A stretch of DNA of 20,335 nt from a virus: IMG/VR virus record IMGVR_UViG_3300025086_000332, positions 1 through 20,335 of that record. One strand, 5' to 3'. The position numbers were made by a program, and so were the translations under genes. The notes beneath the pieces were generated by a model. The model did no database searches and was not told the DNA's origin. It worked only from the letters and a program-made list of their open reading frames with translations. Numbering within the stretch: the stretch's first letter is position 1; each line of letters opens with the position of its first letter. Positions 8,619 to 19,077 of this stretch are shown piece by piece.

Positions 8619-8779
8619 CCTAGCTTGACCCCATTATGTATAATAATGAAAAAGCAAGCAACCAAGTGAGTGAGTACCCAAAAGGTACGTAACATAGCAG
8701 CCATATCGCTTTCACTTTCATCATCTGATATCTTGCTCCCAATTGTTTTTGCCCATACTCTCCATGCTTTACTTCTCAT
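8609..8779 (-). CDS. small membrane protein, 56 residues
   Basis: It starts with ATG at 8779, overlapping the stop of the DUF1127-like gene by 11 bases, with an AAGAAAGAAC purine stretch upstream. The N-terminal half is basic then acidic (MRSKAWRVWAKTIG, then DDESESD). Residues 32-48 (TFWVLTHLVACFFIIIH) form one predicted membrane span, and the protein ends VKLGWF. Together with the next 41-residue gene it forms a pair of tiny membrane proteins between the DUF1127-like and DUF6447-like genes. Function is unknown. Confidence 0.6.
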   Translation of the reverse strand: MRSKAWRVWAKTIGSKISDDESESDMAAMLRTFWVLTHLVACFFIIIHNGVKLGWF

Positions 8780-8960
8780 AGTTCTTTCTTTGTAACTCTG
8801 TATACGCTAGTTTTTCTATGTCATGTCTTCTTATACCCATATCTTCTAACGTATGGTCAGGTAAATCTTGTAGTGTTCTTATTATCTTTCGTGTCTTACG
8901 CCAGTCTATAACATATCTCATAAATCTTGTCAAGTAATTTTCCAGTGCTAATTTTTTCAT
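8769..8960 (-). CDS. DUF1127-like (YjiS-type) small protein
   Basis: 63 residues from the ATG at 8960, which has AGGAG 6 bases upstream; an earlier in-frame ATG at 9023 would add 21 residues and overlap the reductase gene, but lacks this site. The region from WRKTRKIIRTLQDLPDHTLE through DMGIRRHDIEKLAY matches the DUF1127 pattern: a basic helix, a Leu-rich turn (L-x-x-L-xD-xxL), then D-(I/M)-G-(I/L)-x-R-x-(D/E)-I. DUF1127 proteins are small, Arg-rich and common in Proteobacteria, above all Alphaproteobacteria. Some have been reported to act in phosphate or carbon metabolism and in RNA turnover. Such a gene in a phage operon may have come from the host and may act on host regulation; this is inference. 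It lies directly after the ribonucleotide reductase gene. Confidence 0.75.
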   Translation of the reverse strand: MKKLALENYLTRFMRYVIDWRKTRKIIRTLQDLPDHTLEDMGIRRHDIEKLAYTELQRKNYEK

Positions 8961-9019
8961 TGTATCTCCTGTTGTGTTTATATATTCTCTTTTGTTTCCT
9001 AAATACCCGGGAACGTACT

Positions 9020-10963
9020 TCATGCTGCAGTCAAGTCCACTACTTCACAGACCCCTGCTGAACATGCTAACTCACGTCCACCCGATGTATTATCTTCTTT
9101 CTCAAACTCAGGCAGTAAAGACCAGTCAACTGTATCTGGCATACGTGCAAACAGTTCAGTGTATTTGTCCTTATCTATATCTTGATAGGGTGCTTGCTGA
9201 TATGTATGCTCACTAAATGGTAAGAAGCTAATGCCTGATACCTCATCAAAGTTTTCATACACCCATGCACCTACATCCATCCACTCGTGTTCTTTTACAG
9301 AGATAGTGACAGATGGCTTATGCTCACACCAATGTCTCTGATATAGTAGCCATAAGTCTAGCTGTTCAATAGCTGTCATACCAGTACGTGTTACTGCACC
9401 AGAGGGTGACTGCATTGGAAAGCTAAATACTGTAGTGCTATCAGGCTTCATTACATCTGGCTCTGCTGGTATACCCTGTGCTACTAAGAACTGTGTTAGT
9501 GGGTCTTTGTTATCGCCACGCACAGTACGTACATAGTATGGGTTGTGTCTAGCATGAATGCCTGATGCACTGTCAACTAATTGACTAACTGTGCCACTAG
9601 GTTTAACGCATGTAATAGCAGTAGACTGATTAATACCTAGCTGTTCAGCAAATTTTGCATTTGTTTCTACAGCTACAGTTTTTAATTCTTCAAGTAATGT
9701 ACCAATGTTAGTACCATAAGTAGTACTCTGTCCTGCCAGTATCTGATTATCCATGATACCAGTAAGTGACACACCAAGTAGTCTCTCTTCCTGCGTATTT
9801 CTTTTCCATACATCTCTTAGATATTTAAAGTCTGTCATTGTAGACTGAAACGTACCTAATATAGTAGCAATACGTACCTTTTTACGTAGTGATTCCATAT
9901 TATCAGATGCACGTGCCACTACTTCAGATAGATTGCAGAACTGATATGGACGTAAGATAATTTCACTGCATGGGTTGCAACCAAAAGCGTAGTCAGTATC
10001 ACGTCTACCATTCTTAGCGGCTTGTTTGATAGCTGATGCACGATTGAATATGCCACGCTCACCCGACTTGCTTTCGTACAAGGACACCCACTCACGCATA
10101 AATGTACCCATCTGTGGTTTCTCTTTGTAGGCTACAGAGTTATTAGCTAACGCACGTTGCCCTTCATTCTCCCACCACTGACCTGACTTAGCGTGTGCCA
10201 TCTGGTCATCATTAAGATTAGACAATGAAATCAATGCACTACGTCTAACCCCACCTACAACTACAACTTCACCTATCTTACACATGATGTCGTGACATTC
10301 AATAGGGTACAGCCTACGACCTGATGCACCCTTGAACTTCTCAATGCAGAAGTTAAACAACTCTATCAAAGGTTGTGGTCCTGATGCCCTACCACCAAAT
10401 GTCTTCAGCCTTGCACCTGCTGGACGCACTTTAGATACATCCCACTTTGGTATCTGACCTGCATATAACATAGCAATCAACTCACGTAATGCTTTAGACC
10501 ACCCGGGTCTGCTGTCACCAACCTTAATTACTGTGTCGCTGTACTCAAAGTGTTCATTAACTATAGGCAACTTGTCTACAGCGTTACGCTCCACAGAGAA
10601 GCCTACACCTGTGCCACACATTAAGATGTACATTGTCTCATCAAATGCTCTAGGACTGTCTACAGGTACGTAAGAACAGTTGTATCCACCTACATGGCAT
10701 CTATCTAAGGCAGGTCCTGATGTCATCAATGCTCTCATGCTTGGCATCACTCTTTGCTCAAGCACTGCTTCCTCTAACTCACTACGTAATGAATCAGATA
10801 AGTCAAAGTCACACGTTTCTTTTAGGTGATTTGTCATGTAGTCAAAGTATCTTGCTACTGTTTCTCCCCATGTCTCACGTCTTTGCTCATCCTCTTTCCA
10901 TCTAGCGTAGCGAGATAGAGCAATAAAGTTTTGATAGTCTGTTGGTAAGTAATTGCTTATCAT
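9020..10963 (-). CDS. nrdJ: class II (adenosylcobalamin-dependent) ribonucleotide reductase, monomeric type
   Basis: 647 residues; it reduces ribonucleotides to deoxyribonucleotides for phage DNA synthesis, using coenzyme B12 to make a cysteine thiyl radical. The active-site block is GCNPCSEIIL with N330, C332 (radical Cys) and E334, followed 11 residues later by C343. C96 (GGYNCSY) is the probable partner of the C343 redox pair. Near the C-terminus C634 and C639 (ACSAGVCE) form the CxxxxC pair that is re-reduced by thioredoxin. The same spacings occur in the Lactobacillus leichmannii monomeric enzyme (C408/C419 and C731/C736). The protein is somewhat shorter than that enzyme (about 740 residues). 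The ATG at 10963 overlaps the upstream stop and has GGAGA upstream. There is no separate beta-subunit gene, consistent with class II. Confidence 0.93.
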   Translation of the reverse strand: MISNYLPTDYQNFIALSRYARWKEDEQRRETWGETVARYFDYMTNHLKETCDFDLSDSLRSELEEAVLEQRVMPSMRALMTSGPALDRCHVGGYNCSYVPVDSPRAFDETMYILMCGTGVGFSVERNAVDKLPIVNEHFEYSDTVIKVGDSRPGWSKALRELIAMLYAGQIPKWDVSKVRPAGARLKTFGGRASGPQPLIELFNFCIEKFKGASGRRLYPIECHDIMCKIGEVVVVGGVRRSALISLSNLNDDQMAHAKSGQWWENEGQRALANNSVAYKEKPQMGTFMREWVSLYESKSGERGIFNRASAIKQAAKNGRRDTDYAFGCNPCSEIILRPYQFCNLSEVVARASDNMESLRKKVRIATILGTFQSTMTDFKYLRDVWKRNTQEERLLGVSLTGIMDNQILAGQSTTYGTNIGTLLEELKTVAVETNAKFAEQLGINQSTAITCVKPSGTVSQLVDSASGIHARHNPYYVRTVRGDNKDPLTQFLVAQGIPAEPDVMKPDSTTVFSFPMQSPSGAVTRTGMTAIEQLDLWLLYQRHWCEHKPSVTISVKEHEWMDVGAWVYENFDEVSGISFLPFSEHTYQQAPYQDIDKDKYTELFARMPDTVDWSLLPEFEKEDNTSGGRELACSAGVCEVVDLTAA

Positions 10964-12236: not shown

Positions 12237-13083
12237 ATTCCTTTGCTAACTCAACATACTTAACAATCTTAGGTTCTTTAGCTTGAGATTTAACAGCAGG
12301 TAGTTCTTTTAAAGAAGGCCAACAACTAAATCTGTAGTCACAAAATCCACACTCAGTACCTAAAATTTTATTACCTGTAGGTTTACCTCTAAATGTTTCT
12401 ACCTGCGGCTCAAAACATCTTTCAAATTTATTTTCTTTTAGTTTAGTATTTACATTTTTTATTTTATTTAATTCTTGTTCTACATCAATGTTGTTAGCAG
12501 GTACATATTTAAATTCACCATTAGCTTTATTAACGACCCACCAACCACCTGCTTTTAGTCCAGATGCTTTTGCATAACCTGCAAGTTGTCCTATATAACC
12601 AAAGGCATCACCTGATTTCAATGTGTCAAAAGATTCAAACTTATGTTTATATGACCAGTCAGATGCAGATTTAATGTCATCAACAGCACCATCAATAACA
12701 ATATCATATGTTCCATTAATAGTGTCATCGTCTATAGATAACTTAACAGTATCAGAATCTTTGTATTCTACTTTAGCTTCTTTTAATAAACCTTTAAATA
12801 CAGCTTCAACAATATCCCCTAACATCATATTCATAATGAATGTAGTAGGTTTTGGTAAAGCAGTTTCAGGTTTATTCTTTTCAAACCACAACTGACAATA
12901 AGGTCTGCCAACATTTGACATACGTAATTTAAACTTTCTAGGTTCACTCTCACCAAATTGTTTTAGTACTGCTTCATAAACATCATTAGAAATTTGAGAT
13001 GCTACATCTTTTGATATAGCACCTTTTCCTTTAACAACTTTTTCTAAGTATTGATGTAAAGCTATTTCTGCTCTGTGATTCAT
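12223..13083 (-). CDS. Cas4/RecB-like PD-(D/E)XK exonuclease with probable Fe-S cluster
   Basis: 286 residues. Nuclease motifs in order: D127 (GTYDIVIDG), D136-x-K138 (DDIKSAS), and Q166 with Y170 (QLAGY, motif IV of the RecB/Cas4 group). Four cysteines are placed as in Fe-S nucleases: C63 (PYCQLW) far upstream, then C245, C248 and C254 near the C-terminus (CGFCDYRFSC). Family members (Cas4, AddB, phage RecB-like nucleases) chew DNA ends. In T7-like phages the exonuclease (gp6) removes primers and degrades host DNA; this gene occupies that place though from a different family than gp6. The ATG at 13083 overlaps the upstream stop (ATGA). Confidence 0.88.
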   Translation of the reverse strand: MNHRAEIALHQYLEKVVKGKGAISKDVASQISNDVYEAVLKQFGESEPRKFKLRMSNVGRPYCQLWFEKNKPETALPKPTTFIMNMMLGDIVEAVFKGLLKEAKVEYKDSDTVKLSIDDDTINGTYDIVIDGAVDDIKSASDWSYKHKFESFDTLKSGDAFGYIGQLAGYAKASGLKAGGWWVVNKANGEFKYVPANNIDVEQELNKIKNVNTKLKENKFERCFEPQVETFRGKPTGNKILGTECGFCDYRFSCWPSLKELPAVKSQAKEPKIVKYVELAKEYEVA

Positions 13084-13931
13084 ACTGCTTCCTCTACATC
13101 ACTAACATCAATAAACTCATCAGTGTCTATAGGTTTGTTGTTTTTGTTCCACTCATTTAAAACATAATCATTGTGTGATTCAATGCTTTCCATAAAAGAT
13201 GTAAACAAAGATTGGTCATCATCCGATATTTCAATTGATGACTGCATGTTTAACATTGGCACAGGCACATAGTATGAATTACCTGTTGGTAAGTCTCTCT
13301 TAGCAGTGTCAATATTTATAGTATGTAACATAGGAAGACGTTTCATTTTATTAAGTTTAGCAAAAACACTACCCATGTTTTTAAAACCTTCCTTAGTATC
13401 TACATCCCAAACAAAAGGTACATCTTGAATAGGATGAGCATCACCTTCTTCAGTTACTGCATCTGCCATAGTTACTGTACCATACACTACACGTGTTCGT
13501 TTGATAGCACGAAGTAAATCTTTAGTTTCTTGTGGCAAGGAATTAAAATCTTCAATCCAACCAGAGGGTTTACCACAATTAAAATCACCTACTGTATCTT
13601 TTAAATCTACGTTAAAACTATCTGCCATCAAAGTTTTGACATAGGTGTTACTGTTTGGGTCATACTTCTGATACATAAATCGTTGTACAAAAGGTCTGAT
13701 GATAGCACTCTCTGCATACACAGTAGTACCATTCTTTAATTCAAAGCCACCAGATAGTACTTCAACCTTTACCATCTTACCATTCATATTTGTCTCACCA
13801 TATAAAGGCTTCTTGTTTACTCGTAGTCGAGCTAGACTAGATTTACTTTCACTGCCTGTGTCGTAAGCCATGCCCATCATCTTTGCCATTGCTGCATAAT
13901 CGTTTGTATTTATTACTGCTAATTCACTCAT
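13080..13931 (-). CDS. hypothetical protein, candidate single-stranded DNA-binding protein
   Basis: 283 residues, not matched to a named family by eye. The central part is rich in beta-strand segments and aromatic/basic residues (RVNKKPLYGET, RFMYQKYDPNS, KRTRVVYGTVTM), which an OB-fold could explain. The C-terminal 20 residues are strongly acidic (DTDEFIDVSDVEEAV), as in SSB proteins and T7 gp2.5, where the acidic tail binds replisome partners. It sits between DNA polymerase and exonuclease, where a replisome protein is expected, and no other SSB candidate is visible. AGGAG lies about 10 bases before the ATG. The SSB role is inference from composition and position. Confidence 0.7.
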   Translation of the reverse strand: MSELAVINTNDYAAMAKMMGMAYDTGSESKSSLARLRVNKKPLYGETNMNGKMVKVEVLSGGFELKNGTTVYAESAIIRPFVQRFMYQKYDPNSNTYVKTLMADSFNVDLKDTVGDFNCGKPSGWIEDFNSLPQETKDLLRAIKRTRVVYGTVTMADAVTEEGDAHPIQDVPFVWDVDTKEGFKNMGSVFAKLNKMKRLPMLHTINIDTAKRDLPTGNSYYVPVPMLNMQSSIEISDDDQSLFTSFMESIESHNDYVLNEWNKNNKPIDTDEFIDVSDVEEAV

Positions 13932-13971: not shown

Positions 13972-16014
13972 TCATATAACGTCTTTGGTGTCAAGCCAAT
14001 TCGGACCTATTTTTGCTTCTAATAATAGTGGAACATTAAATGTTATACCCCACTTAGTATTAAGTATACTTTCTAGTTCCATGTTTGTTTTATTTATTAT
14101 TTCTATTACTCCTTTCTCTTCATCGGGATGTATATCAATTACAATACTGTCGTGAACTGTGTTAACAATACATGACTTAAAAGTTTTCAATAGCTTATGT
14201 ATATGTATCATAGCCACAGGAACTATGTCAGCAGTAGCAAACCCTTGGACAGGATAGTTCTTAATGTTAGTAAAGTAAGTTACACCACCATTAGGTCTAC
14301 GTTGTACATTAGGAAACGAGTATTGTCTACCTGATGGTATAGTAATATACCTATGTGTTAAAGCCTCTTCAGCCAGTCTGGTGTGCCATAGCTTGATTCC
14401 TTGGTACTTTTCCGTAAAGTGTTCGTAGTACGCCGCTTCAGCATGTGTGCGTCCATATCCCGTTGCTCCGTAAAGTGGCGCGAATGTATGTGCTTTTGCT
14501 TCTTGGCGACTAGTCTTCTGACCTGCATCACTAATAACTTTGGCAGTGTAACTATGTACATCAAAACCTGTTTTAACTTCTTCAATTGCTACTCCATCAT
14601 TTGAAAGGAACGCCGCTACACGAAACTCTAACTGTGCAAAGTCAGCTTCCATAATTTTACCACCATCCCAACGCGATACAAATACTTTCTTTACAGGAAA
14701 CGTACCACCACGAGGCATGTTCTGCATATTAGGATTAGAACCTGATAACCTGCCTGTTGCAGTTCTATGTTGCATTAAACTTACATGTAACTTACCATCA
14801 GGTTTTGTATACGTTTCAATACCATTTACATAAGTAGATATGTAAGATTCTACAGCATTTAAACGTATAACTTTAGACAAAAATTGTTCAGCTTGTGTCA
14901 TCTCTTTTGATTTAGCTACAGCTTGTAGGTGTTTTAGATTATCCTTTCCTGTACTAAAACCATTAGCACTAGCCCACTTAGATGATGGTGCTTTAAACTT
15001 TAGTCCTGCTATTTGTTTGGTGTCATTATATATAAAGCCTTCAGAATGACAAACAACACACTTATTATCTTTAGCGTATGGTGTACCATCCTTTTTAGTT
15101 TTACGTATATAACCTTTACCTTTACAAGTATTACATTTATCAGCCAATGTTTTAAAAACTGTAGCAGTTTCAAGCCTAATTAAATCTCTCCACTGTGTAT
15201 CCTTCATGTATTCACTATAAGAATTAGCCCATACATTTTTATCTCTTGGCTTCCTAGAATATATTACCCAAGATAATTGCTCTGGACTACTAAGATTTAT
15301 TTTTGTGTCACCCATCAAGTCTTGTACATCTTTTAGTAATTGACTTGTAAGTTCTAGTTTTTCTTTTTCAAACTCCTCTCTAACATCATTAAGAATATTA
15401 GTGTCTACTGATATACCATTACAGTATGTATCAGCTAGAACTTTACATAACTCATTAGTTAGTACAACTGTATCTAACAGTGTTGAATATTCTTTTGTGT
15501 TTAACTTTTTCCATTGTAAATCAGATAGTTCTTGAGTTGCCTTTACGTCAGTTAAACAATATTCTGATAACTCATCTAATGGAATATCATTTGTATTCAA
15601 ACCTTTAGCATAGTATTCTTTTAATGTTCCAAGTTTACGAGTTAGGTTATGCCTTTCAGCACATGCCTCAAGTGATAGGCTACCTTGCTTATCACCCCTT
15701 TGTAATACATACTCTACTAACATGGTATCCCAAATTGCACCATCATATTTAAAACCACACTCCCACAACCACTGTAATTCATATGCCGCATTGTGACATA
15801 TTAATACAGTAGCTTCGTCTAAGAACCATTGAACACGCTCATGGTAATTATGTTTACTCACATGCTCTGGGTGGTCAAATGGAAATGAATACTCAGCACC
15901 TGCATCAGTTCTTATGCCAACTAGGACAAGAGAATTGTCAGGCTCAAAAGGGTCAAGGTGTAATTTACCATCACGCTTTTGTGTATTTGTTTCCACATCT
16001 ATTGTTACTTTCAT
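13972..16014 (-). CDS. polA: family A DNA polymerase with 3'-5' exonuclease and DnaJ-like zinc insert
   Basis: 680 residues. Exonuclease domain: D6-x-E8 (IDVETN), N75 with E79 (HNAAYE; the usual Asp of motif II is Glu), and Y152 with D156 (YCLTD). Residues 294-327 hold a DnaJ-like zinc finger: C294-x2-C297-x-G-x-G and C319-x2-C322-x3-G. Such a partial DnaJ insert between exonuclease and polymerase domains is described for the HMO-2011 phage group. Polymerase domain: HRTATGRL (417-424), motif A D458 and E463 (DFAQLE), motif B R503, K507, F511 and Y515-G516, motif C H621-D622-S623. All catalytic polymerase residues are present, so it should be active. The residue at E. coli position 762 is Phe (F511). 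AAGGAATAG precedes the ATG. Confidence 0.96.
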   Translation of the reverse strand: MKVTIDVETNTQKRDGKLHLDPFEPDNSLVLVGIRTDAGAEYSFPFDHPEHVSKHNYHERVQWFLDEATVLICHNAAYELQWLWECGFKYDGAIWDTMLVEYVLQRGDKQGSLSLEACAERHNLTRKLGTLKEYYAKGLNTNDIPLDELSEYCLTDVKATQELSDLQWKKLNTKEYSTLLDTVVLTNELCKVLADTYCNGISVDTNILNDVREEFEKEKLELTSQLLKDVQDLMGDTKINLSSPEQLSWVIYSRKPRDKNVWANSYSEYMKDTQWRDLIRLETATVFKTLADKCNTCKGKGYIRKTKKDGTPYAKDNKCVVCHSEGFIYNDTKQIAGLKFKAPSSKWASANGFSTGKDNLKHLQAVAKSKEMTQAEQFLSKVIRLNAVESYISTYVNGIETYTKPDGKLHVSLMQHRTATGRLSGSNPNMQNMPRGGTFPVKKVFVSRWDGGKIMEADFAQLEFRVAAFLSNDGVAIEEVKTGFDVHSYTAKVISDAGQKTSRQEAKAHTFAPLYGATGYGRTHAEAAYYEHFTEKYQGIKLWHTRLAEEALTHRYITIPSGRQYSFPNVQRRPNGGVTYFTNIKNYPVQGFATADIVPVAMIHIHKLLKTFKSCIVNTVHDSIVIDIHPDEEKGVIEIINKTNMELESILNTKWGITFNVPLLLEAKIGPNWLDTKDVI

Positions 16015-16016
16015 AA

Positions 16017-16205
16017 CTATTCCTTTGTATGTTTAAAATATATCTTATCACCTAATGGTAAAGACAATTCTGCATTTTCTATATCTTGTTTTCCTACGTA
16101 CTCCCATGTGTATCCATTGTTTCTGTTCTCTTCTACTGCATTTATAAATGTAGCATTTTCATTACTAAACAATGCCACCATTACTATTCCAAAAATTGTT
16201 ATCAT
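16017..16205 (-). CDS. small hypothetical protein with hydrophobic N-terminus
   Basis: 62 residues, between helicase and polymerase genes. The ATG at 16205 shares one base with the helicase stop (TAATG); GGAAGG lies about 11 bases upstream. Residues 1-14 (MITIFGIVMVALFS) are hydrophobic but short for a full membrane span, so they may be a buried strand. The rest is polar, with NRNNGYTWEYVGKQ and a final strand KIYFKHTK, which suggests a small alpha/beta fold. It stops 3 bases before the polymerase start. Its position suggests a small replication accessory factor, but no motif shows this. Confidence 0.65.
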   Translation of the reverse strand: MITIFGIVMVALFSNENATFINAVEENRNNGYTWEYVGKQDIENAELSLPLGDKIYFKHTKE

Positions 16206-17428
16206 TATACTTTATACCTTCCTGTTACGTTATCTATATTACACAATAGTCTGCCATGCCAACCAGATAATTTATTCTTCACAATATTAATGTGTCTTTG
16301 TGGGTCATTATTATCTGAGTTGTTACCAATTGCAGGGTTAGCAGCAATCAATAACATCAAGTCAGCTTCGGCAGCTTTGCCTGTCTTTGAACCTTCCATC
16401 ATACTCTGGTTCAATGTCACCTTACCTTCAGCTTCTGCTGATAGTTGAGACATATAAAATATGGCACAGTTATGCTCCTTTCCTATCTGTCGTGCCTTTA
16501 TTACATTAGCTTTCAAAGATTCGTCTTGCCTAAGATTAGAATCTATCTTAGCAAACTTATCTCCCATATCTAGTACAACTATATCTGGATTATAAGATTT
16601 GCAAACACCATCTACCCAATTCATATTCTTTCCTGTACTATCTTTCATATACAAGTTTGGCATATTTTCATAAGCACTTCTGCCTAACTCTCTGTCTAGT
16701 TTTAATTTATCCTCAGAATAATTTGATGCTACACAAGCATAACGTCTTGCTACTCTGTCATACTTTTCTTCATTGATAAGCACTAAACACTTAGCACCCT
16801 GTTCAAGAAACCCCCCGGGACCTGCTAACATACTAGCGTGGAAAGATGTCTTACCAGTATTAGGTCTAGCACCTACCTCAATCAACATACCAGAGTTAAC
16901 ACCTGCTACAACTTGTGCTAGTGTAGGTAAGTTAAACTTCCAACGACTGTGTTCTTCTAGCATATCCATTATAGTATCATAAGATATATCTTCCCATTCA
17001 ACACTAGTCGTTGGTGTAAAATCAGAATTGTATTTAGCAATTAAATCTTTTAAAGGTTGTAGAGTAGTGATGTCACCATTAGATAAGTCTACTGCTAGGT
17101 TAACTAGTTCATCTCCTACGTGCTTGCGAAACAGCTTGGATAGTACATCATTTGCTACATCAGTACCCATAGGTTGTTCATTCTTTATGGAGTGAAACAA
17201 CGCATCAAACTGATGCATTTGTGCAGTAGTAAGAGATGGGTTTTCTGATATAAAAAACATATGTACTTCTTCAGGTGTCAAGTCACGTCTATAAGTAGTA
17301 ACCATCTCATCAATAATCTTCTTAACTTTCTTAGCATCAGTGGAGAACAGAGTGTCTGGGCATCTATCTCCACGATTATTATCGTGAAAGTCTTTATTCA
17401 TTAAGGTACGTAATAGTGTTTGTTCCAT
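16205..17428 (-). CDS. replicative DNA helicase, DnaB/T7 gp4 C-terminal type
   Basis: 407 residues. The N-terminal 150 residues are helical and lack zinc or Toprim motifs. The RecA-like core follows: Walker A at 186-195 (GARPNTGKTS, K193 and T194), the NEEKYDRVARRYA segment near 219, Walker B with D282 to D287 (DIVVLD), the Q-containing MSQLS at 326-330, and KNKLSGWHGR near 384-393, typical of DnaB/gp4 ring helicases. It unwinds DNA ahead of the polymerase as a hexamer. In T7 this domain is fused to the primase; here it is a separate gene starting at the stop of the primase gene (TAATG). Confidence 0.93.
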   Translation of the reverse strand: MEQTLLRTLMNKDFHDNNRGDRCPDTLFSTDAKKVKKIIDEMVTTYRRDLTPEEVHMFFISENPSLTTAQMHQFDALFHSIKNEQPMGTDVANDVLSKLFRKHVGDELVNLAVDLSNGDITTLQPLKDLIAKYNSDFTPTTSVEWEDISYDTIMDMLEEHSRWKFNLPTLAQVVAGVNSGMLIEVGARPNTGKTSFHASMLAGPGGFLEQGAKCLVLINEEKYDRVARRYACVASNYSEDKLKLDRELGRSAYENMPNLYMKDSTGKNMNWVDGVCKSYNPDIVVLDMGDKFAKIDSNLRQDESLKANVIKARQIGKEHNCAIFYMSQLSAEAEGKVTLNQSMMEGSKTGKAAEADLMLLIAANPAIGNNSDNNDPQRHINIVKNKLSGWHGRLLCNIDNVTGRYKV

Positions 17429-18168
17429 TACACACCACCTAATCTTATCATCATATCAATGTCATCCTTTCGTTGATATTTTAAATCATTATTTAATCTT
17501 AGTAACTTAGAGTTGGGTATATCCTGTGTCATCTTTACAGCTTTTGTTATGGCATCAGGGTCAAGGGCTACTAAAACAGTTGAGAACTGCGAAAGTATCT
17601 GCTTATGTTGTACCAACAAAGTTGTTCCAAGTAACGCGACCCCAACAAAACCATTCACATTACCTGCCACTACAGCACTAACACAGTCCTCAACCACCAC
17701 TGCGACATCACCAGAGCCATAACGATATGGGAAAGGAGAGAAACCATATCGCTTCCACTTGGGTTGCCGCCATCCTGCCAACGCTCTACCAGTAGCGTCA
17801 ACAAAAACACCATCATTCATCACAGGAAATACTACTCTGTCTTCTCTGACATCATAAAGTATATCAACCTGTGCGTATGTTATTGCCCACCTGTGTAGGA
17901 AATCTAATACGTGTCCTCTATTTCTATGAGGTACAATGTACTCAGGCATTACAAATTCTTTTTGTTGCTCCTTCTTTTTATTTATCTGTTCTACAGATAG
18001 TCGTGTTTTCTCGTTACCTTTTACATCACAACTAGCTTTATAACAATTCCACATTAACTTACCCATGTCATTTGTAATAGTAAAAGTATTATAACCTTTA
18101 CATATTGGGCAGTTAGTTCTTACTGTTTCACCTATGCCAACATCTATATCATTTAATATCTTTAACAT
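17428..18168 (-). CDS. DNA primase with zinc finger and Toprim domain
   Basis: 246 residues, equal to the T7 gp4 primase half alone. The zinc-binding domain has C20, C23, C42 and C47 (NCPICKG, then WNCYKASC). The Toprim-like catalytic core shows VVVED at 157-161 (E160) and ALDPDA at 201-206 (D203 and D205), which bind the metal ions for RNA primer synthesis. It makes the primers that the polymerase extends. The start has AAGGAG upstream of ATG at 18168 and the stop overlaps the helicase start, so the two are probably made together. The split from the helicase is clear because of the stop codon, unless a sequencing error is present. Confidence 0.92.
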   Translation of the reverse strand: MLKILNDIDVGIGETVRTNCPICKGYNTFTITNDMGKLMWNCYKASCDVKGNEKTRLSVEQINKKKEQQKEFVMPEYIVPHRNRGHVLDFLHRWAITYAQVDILYDVREDRVVFPVMNDGVFVDATGRALAGWRQPKWKRYGFSPFPYRYGSGDVAVVVEDCVSAVVAGNVNGFVGVALLGTTLLVQHKQILSQFSTVLVALDPDAITKAVKMTQDIPNSKLLRLNNDLKYQRKDDIDMMIRLGGV

Positions 18169-18204: not shown

Positions 18205-19077
18205 TTATGTATCACGATTTTGTCTTGCTGTCAAGGCATAATTAGCACTGTCGTAAGTATTTTTTATGTATGGTTTCACACTTTGTGGGTTACTATGTCC
18301 TGTAACCGACATGATTTGTGCAATGCCGACACCTGCCTCAACCATTTCTGTTGTACCTGTCCTGCGTAAGTCAGACAACCTTAATTCTTTTGGCAAACCT
18401 GCCTCATCTATTAGCTGACGAGAAAACTTTGACATCTTAAACATACTATAAGGTATATATTCTCCTTTATAAGGGCTAGGTCTGGGTGCAATGTAATTTT
18501 GAAAACCAAAATCATCGTGTTGCTGCACTAACATCTCCATTAAGTTATCGCTTATAGGTAAGAATACTTCTGCTCTACGCTTACTCTGCTCAATGGAACA
18601 CCTTTGCTTGGTAAAACTAATAGTATCCCATGTCAACACTCGCATATCACCTACACGTTGACACCATTCGTATGCCATCTGTGCAATCAAACCCAGATTG
18701 CGCCACTTGTAATCACTATATGCATGGTCAAGTAATTGTTGTACTTGTTCAGGTGTCCAAACAGTTTTTCTACTTTTAGTTGACCTCTTCTTAACTGAGG
18801 CAAATGGATTAGTGCTTATATTCTCCATGCGAACTGCATAGTTCATAACTATATTTGCTACACACACTATATGATTAGCATATGATACACCCATGCTACA
18901 CCAGAAATCGTAGGCAAGTTTAGCTTTCTTTGTTGTCAAAAGATTGACATCTAATTCCTCACCAAAATATTTAGTGAAACAACTCATCATGTATTTATAG
19001 TGTTGTTTAGTTTCTTTACGTAACTCTTTGTATTCTATAGAACTTTTGTATTGCTCTATCAGTATTGTTATTGTCAT
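18205..19077 (-). CDS. int: tyrosine recombinase (phage integrase), altered catalytic His
   Basis: 290 residues. The N-terminal SAM-like/core-binding part (residues 1-95) is helical and basic. Catalytic domain: R141 (QRVGDMRVLTW), K166 (QSKRRAEVF), R238 (LSDLRRTGTTEM), H261 (TGHSNPQS) and Y270 (VKPYIKNT). The H of the usual HxxR motif is Ser (S235). This change occurs in some family members, so activity may remain. Such enzymes integrate phage DNA at an attachment site. AGGAGT precedes ATG at 19077. It is followed by the primase gene with 36 bases between. No tRNA-like attP core was seen next to it. Confidence 0.92.
   Translation of the reverse strand: MTITILIEQYKSSIEYKELRKETKQHYKYMMSCFTKYFGEELDVNLLTTKKAKLAYDFWCSMGVSYANHIVCVANIVMNYAVRMENISTNPFASVKKRSTKSRKTVWTPEQVQQLLDHAYSDYKWRNLGLIAQMAYEWCQRVGDMRVLTWDTISFTKQRCSIEQSKRRAEVFLPISDNLMEMLVQQHDDFGFQNYIAPRPSPYKGEYIPYSMFKMSKFSRQLIDEAGLPKELRLSDLRRTGTTEMVEAGVGIAQIMSVTGHSNPQSVKPYIKNTYDSANYALTARQNRDT

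Follow-up and report, generated by a model that had tools for sequence, protein, structure and literature searches.

Introduction

Phages of the HMO-2011 type, an abundant marine group, carry a "partial DnaJ domain" in their DNA polymerase, which has been published as a hallmark of the group and placed between the exonuclease and polymerase domains, and a host-chaperone analogy with lambda has been drawn (PMC9038755). Two literal CXXCXGXG motifs serve as a filter (PMC9038755, PMC8528129). Other family A polymerases illustrate what the thumb and its insertions contribute. When the thumb of E. coli Pol I is truncated, both processivity and fidelity drop (PMC10061031, citing Minnick 1996). The thumb insertion of T7 DNA polymerase works as a clamp, and its basic residues touch the DNA backbone in simulations (PMC5984650). 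In plant organellar polymerases, a lysine-rich insertion in the thumb (insertion 1) is poised to contact duplex DNA (PMC7699545).

Here we analyzed a virus record of 20,335 bases (the window, meaning the whole stretch of DNA), whose minus strand encodes a polymerase of this kind. Like the polymerases of HMO-2011, CRP-1, CRP-2, CRP-3 and HTVC033P, it belongs to family A, joins an exonuclease to a polymerase and has the same spacing within its cysteine finger; the gene order primase-helicase-polymerase-next gene is also that of HMO-2011. It differs from the HMO-2011-type polymerases in its second cysteine motif, which is CVVCHSEG rather than CxxCxGxG, and in a Glu at the exo II position. The presence of the finger in HMO-2011-type polymerases is already known; our analysis adds its placement on the thumb and the constrained basic hairpin that it carries.

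Domain organization of the polymerase

The 680-residue polymerase was matched by the Pfam families PF00476 (E 1e-56) and PF01612 (E 2.5e-6). Its AlphaFold2 model (mean pLDDT 90.7, pTM 0.84) has the full Pol I fold, with a VIA-align Z of 34.6 to Bacillus Pol I 4f3o over 531 residues. The preliminary description of this DNA called the exonuclease intact. The domain is indeed matched by Pfam, but Glu79 occupies the exo II position, where the catalytic Asp is expected and which we take to be that of D424 in E. coli Pol I. Asp is found there in 230 of the 234 aligned polymerases; those with Glu are the window polymerase and the ones closest to it (L002, L003 and L004). Judging from the alignment, this small clade may have altered proofreading.

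Table 1. Features of the polymerase gene and its neighbors, with positions in the window.
Feature	Position	Strand	Basis
Family A DNA polymerase with 3'-5' exonuclease domain, 680 aa	13972-16014	minus	ORF translation, Pfam, structure match
Exonuclease domain, residues 1-175; Glu79 at exo II position (codon GAA, 15778-15780)	15490-16014	minus	Pfam, alignment
Palm and fingers, residues 406-680, with motifs A, B and C	13975-14799	minus	Pfam, alignment
Thumb helix H1, residues 244-252, opposite Pol I SSTKQLQTI	15259-15285	minus	AlphaFold2 model, profile alignment
Thumb-tip insertion, residues 253-356 (two short helices, two strands, finger)	14947-15258	minus	model, profile alignment
Thumb helix H2, residues 357-369	14908-14946	minus	AlphaFold2 model
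Putative DnaJ-like zinc finger, residues 291-330	15025-15144	minus	Pfam, motifs, conservation, profile matches
First cysteine pair (CxxC), C294 (15135-15133) and C297 (15126-15124)	15124-15135	minus	motif
Second cysteine pair (CxxC), C319 (15060-15058) and C322 (15051-15049)	15049-15060	minus	motif
Basic hairpin joining the cysteine pairs, residues 302-318, conserved pattern K-x-K-K-[DN]-G-x-P	15061-15111	minus	charge, dN/dS
283-aa protein, probable gp32-like SSB with acidic C-terminal tail	13080-13931	minus	model, tail charge
DnaB-like replicative helicase, same replication module	16205-17428	minus	Pfam/PHROGs
Probable DNA primase	17428-18168	minus	position (HMO-2011 gp10) and PF13155 Toprim E 0.08, below cut-off

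Location of the finger

A profile built from a 124-row polymerase alignment was compared with E. coli Pol I by hhalign (E 7e-38). The phage stretch INLSSPEQLSWVIY is paired with FNLSSTKQLQTILF of Pol I, and approximately 100 phage residues (about 254-350) face a short Pol I loop. In the AlphaFold2 model the thumb comprises helices H (residues 205-234) and H1, two small helices, then H2 and I (373-402), in names that we take to follow the Pol I convention. Two strands, at residues 287-293 and 327-335, flank the finger, and blocks of pLDDT between 84 and 94 cover the insertion stretch. Because the register of hhalign with Pol I and the model both place it there, the finger is assigned to the thumb tip, within an insertion of about 104 residues between helices H1 and H2. 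The preliminary description had set it between the exonuclease and polymerase domains; by the Pol I alignment and the model it lies rather inside the thumb subdomain, after H1, and the published wording, which is the same, hides this location. The insertion is short or absent in Pol I and in StenR269 and Zobellviridae-type polymerases. The T7 gp5 insertion, between helices H and H1, precedes the NPSS motif of H1. In the Pol I register the finger follows H1, although a weak T7 profile alignment sets the finger opposite the T7 insertion.

Conservation of the cysteine motifs

The four cysteines C294, C297, C319 and C322 are located as had been described, with CNTCKGKG (CxxCxGxG) as the first motif and CVVCHSEG (CxxCxxxG) as the second, which falls short of a full CxxCxGxG. 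The motif pair did not occur once in 20,000 shuffles of the polymerase's own residues. Viral contigs were scanned six times, with finger-bearing queries and one finger-less query, and conservation was counted in the loci found with the finger-bearing queries. All four cysteines were present in 244 of the 245 loci of the first scans, the remaining locus (L176) ending before the site, and in 77 of the 78 CRP-738-type loci, the remaining one (L362) starting inside it. Loss of these cysteines across close relatives, which would have spoken against the finger, was looked for, and all four are kept in every relative that spans the site (321/321). These counts include near-identical sequences and at least two contigs present twice under different locus ids; since the relatives were sampled by their similarity to such polymerases, the counts apply to this group and should not be read as an unbiased survey.

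The first half of the finger has CxxCxGxG and the second CxxCxxxG in 320 of the 321 sequences each, and both halves are literally CxxCxGxG in 211. Among 57 sequences below 80% identity, the four cysteines and G299, G301, G310 and G326 are invariant. In most sequences 21 residues separate the cysteine pairs. Most members of the CRP-738 group (L299-L376) have 33-34 there, a loop longer by 12-13 residues, which stays K/R-rich in the sequences inspected. We infer that the four cysteines bind zinc, because they are invariant and stand in DnaJ-like spacing. The view that the finger is a folded module rather than a degraded relic also agrees with the complete conservation of its cysteines and with the pLDDT blocks of the insertion.

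Relation to DnaJ

The likeness to DnaJ that had been proposed holds up in several comparisons. The DnaJ central domain PF00684 matches residues 291-331 of the whole polymerase weakly (E 5e-4; 20.6 bits, below the cut-off of 32.7), covering positions 15-56 of the 65 in the profile, and all 61 finger segments match it at E<=1. The best solved-structure match of the finger profile is the DnaJ cysteine-rich domain 1exk (hmmsearch E 1.5e-4), over motifs II and III and the hairpin between them, followed by the Q antitermination protein 7ubj (E 0.033), with other DnaJ domains lower. By hhalign, the profile aligns with residues 156-195 of E. coli DnaJ (E 1.4e-5). The shared element is a pair of CxxCxGxG-type knuckles around a short hairpin. 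The full PF00684 layout has four CxxCxGxG motifs and two zinc sites, whereas the finger has two motifs, and no J domain was matched by Pfam in the polymerase up to E 1. The finger thus resembles the inner half (motifs II-III) of the DnaJ zinc domain and would hold one zinc site instead of two; it further differs from DnaJ in its basic hairpin and in lying inside a polymerase.

Cys/Gly-rich finger segments score with many families (86 counted). Phage Q antitermination proteins and Anti-TRAP are likewise small, carry two CxxCxGxG-type knuckles and score with the finger profile, but these scores are weak (7ubj as above; the Anti-TRAP family in 44 of the 61 segments) and the proteins are not polymerases. 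Because short segments of such composition raise scores in many families, common descent of the finger with DnaJ is likely on sequence grounds, short of proven.

The basic hairpin

In each of the 315 sequences counted, the loop that separates the two cysteine pairs is basic (net charge +3 to +11, mean +6.4); six of the 321 lay beyond the range of residues analyzed. The window polymerase as a whole has a net charge of -3. In the window the loop is KGKGYIRKTKKDGTPYAKDNK, with a net charge of +6. Of the 660 segments of equal length in the window polymerase, only 5, the loop itself counted, match or exceed this charge, which ranks the loop among the most basic segments without making it unique. 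In the 57 sequences below 80% identity, hairpin conservation reaches 100% for G310, 96% for K308, 88% for K305 and 82% for K307.

Residues 302-318 have a dN/dS of 0.093, close to the palm and fingers (0.094) and the exonuclease (0.105). Values are higher in the insertion, 0.141 ahead of the finger and 0.135 behind it; the finger taken as a whole gives 0.151, and its non-Cys positions, pooled, give 0.182, that is, rather free variation. These are rough values, pooled over 95 separate pairs without confidence intervals and with pS near 0.5. Since the hairpin is always basic and has a dN/dS like that of the catalytic palm, the sequences point to a conserved surface and not to filler.

The neighboring gene

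The conserved gene following the polymerase has no match in Pfam or PHROGs, and its HMO-2011 counterpart is annotated "hypothetical protein". Its product was modeled from an 81-row alignment (pLDDT 88). The nearest structure is the RB69 gp32 core 2a1k (VIA Z 8.6, 168 aligned residues, 3.8 Å), and the T4 gp32 core 1gpc gives a Z of 8.0, the two alignments covering 168-178 residues. Further gp32 chains score 7.3 and 7.0, the unrelated 9teh 7.4 and the next row 4.3; the lower rows hold many other single-stranded DNA-binding or OB-fold proteins at low Z. Some BFVD matches of the model are named single-stranded DNA-binding protein, and a Foldseek search against the PDB gave no match at E<=0.001. 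The last 15 residues of proteins of this type have a mean net charge of -5, and -4 or lower in 177 of 236 loci, with downstream ORFs taken by position and loci that have no downstream ORF of the set size dropped. The model thus suggests a probable gp32-like SSB and a candidate partner of the finger, which gives this gene a likely role. The searched text of PMC9038755 mentions no SSB; the abbreviation occurs in a figure legend of PMC6918029 that covers several phage groups.

Possible functions of the finger

Starting from the observed motif and its complete conservation, the position on the thumb in profile and model, and the charge and constraint of the hairpin, we propose that a zinc-stapled basic hairpin grips duplex DNA and raises processivity, in function like the T7 thumb insertion. 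Based on sequence, model and analogy, we give this reading a probability of roughly 0.5. A single zinc site made by the four cysteines would pin together the base of a two-stranded, K/R-rich hairpin, which would stand on the thumb tip in the insertion between H1 and H2. From there the hairpin would rest on the sugar-phosphate backbone of the nascent duplex and slow its release. Processivity would then come from a built-in element, whereas the thumb insertion of T7 DNA polymerase must bind thioredoxin. The two share a thumb-tip insertion with basic loops in a phage family A polymerase, and the T7 insertion is without zinc. Insertion 1 of the plant organellar polymerases is also a lysine-rich thumb insertion; a zinc finger is undescribed in the available part of PMC7699545. 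Several observations count against DNA gripping: the basic charge would suit acidic-tailed protein partners equally well, a few other segments of the window polymerase are as basic as the loop, finger-less relatives replicate without the finger, and the pooled non-Cys positions of the finger vary rather freely.

The first of these leads to the main rival reading, possible if somewhat unlikely and drawn by analogy, in which the hairpin docks the acidic C-terminal tail of the phage SSB candidate and couples polymerase and SSB at the fork; DNA gripping could coexist with it. The neighboring model is gp32-like (Z 8.6 and 8.0) and has an acidic tail, but SSBs commonly have acidic tails irrespective of the polymerase that they accompany, and the gp32-like fold is a middling structural match for which Foldseek found no PDB counterpart. 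The SSB tail of T7 gp2.5 binds the T7 thumb insertion (PMC7699545), and the PolA of Clostridium perfringens is predicted to bind SSB via the thumb tip (PMC10061031). We consider it improbable that the zinc site only stabilizes a long thumb insertion, with a hairpin that has no partner: the cysteines and glycines are the most invariant residues, as this would have it, but the remainder of the insertion is under weaker constraint than the hairpin, which is always basic.

Kinship of the finger with DnaJ motifs II-III might suggest that it recruits host DnaK/DnaJ to the replication complex, as in lambda. This analogy seems very unlikely to apply, given the missing J domain match, the presence of only two of the four DnaJ motifs, the position of the finger in a polymerase thumb and the strong basic charge of a hairpin whose aligned segment in E. 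coli DnaJ has one Arg and no Lys. The least probable reading, to which we assign hardly any weight, makes the CxxC pairs a redox or metal sensor that switches the polymerase by host zinc or redox state. CxxC pairs can act as such switches, but CxxCxGxG knuckles are usually of the structural zinc type, and nothing in the gene context suggests sensing.

DNA gripping and SSB docking can be combined in a bolder and rather doubtful proposal, in which the finger is a self-contained substitute for the thioredoxin-charged insertion of T7, a zinc-stapled clamp that would hold the duplex and catch the acidic tail of the gp32-like SSB encoded next door. If this were true, the finger would be what chiefly provides processivity and coupling in one of the most abundant groups of marine phages; it would also be, to our knowledge, the first zinc-dependent thumb in family A. 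The literature searched, outside which many subscription papers lie, describes neither a zinc-dependent family A thumb nor a tested function of the finger. A taxonomic label thereby becomes a biochemical question, namely whether a thumb stapled by zinc can confer processivity, or coupling to SSB, with no protein taken from the host.

Distribution and origin of the finger

The window polymerase combines in one protein the three elements that define the HMO-2011 type, a family A polymerase, a 3'-5' exonuclease and a partial DnaJ domain. That the finger marks this type, as the preliminary description held, agrees with the published papers and with the GenBank note on HMO-2011; the alignment with the HMO-2011 polymerase that it had proposed gave 62.9% identity over the whole protein. 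In a palm tree built without the finger, the window groups with HMO-2011 (starred set of 8 rows, 97/96 and 99/98). Since the window has a second motif other than the literal CxxCxGxG and nevertheless groups with HMO-2011 in this tree, the rule of two literal motifs looks too strict. The published filter would miss about one third of the sampled relatives (110/321), the window included.

A search of 50,697 phage records with the finger alone returned the polymerases of 12 HMO-2011-type records, plus a hypothetical protein in three Brevibacillus records (E ~2). A structure search of BFVD gave, among the matches listed, general family A polymerases only, and no close relative of the polymerase was found in the plasmids searched. 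Bacterial and archaeal genomes yielded 71 loci, of which those near the window are L377-L385. The contigs of these loci come from metagenome bins named Flavobacteriales, Neomarinimicrobiota, Euryarchaeota and others, and two of the bins hold identically named contigs; most likely, L377-L385 are phage contigs that were binned wrongly.

Among 41 MEP401-type loci, 39 have a recognizable thumb tip; none of these has a CxxC there, and three have a Cys. The finger is also absent from the polymerases of ICP2, QDWS535, StenR269 and L388. The palm tree divides 20 finger rows into two sets and puts the finger-less StenR269 and L388 beside the HMO-2011 set (starred 96/86). When the longest rows are left out (seven rows, dropped by name), a single finger clade is not rejected (p-AU 0.124). 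The finger may have arisen by one gain followed by a loss or by two gains, or the division may be a long-branch error. StenR269 (L088) and L388 have a short, Pol I-like thumb tip. A gene with a thioredoxin domain lies close upstream of the StenR269 polymerase and could be another solution to processivity. We also considered whether the finger had grown around a hairpin of the finger-less MEP401-type polymerases (IGHYKTG..GEVKYK). MAFFT aligns the two, but hhalign of the thumb segments does not, either locally or globally, and this origin was rejected.

Other genes in the window

No RNA family or tRNA was found when the window was searched for them. An integrase is encoded at 18205-19077 on the minus strand (PHROGs), so the phage may be temperate. 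A B12-dependent (class II) ribonucleotide reductase with a class II insertion domain lies at 9020-10963 on the minus strand. Beside it, a small DUF1127 protein (8769-9023, minus strand, E 9e-9) is perhaps host-derived; DUF1127 proteins are common in alphaproteobacteria.
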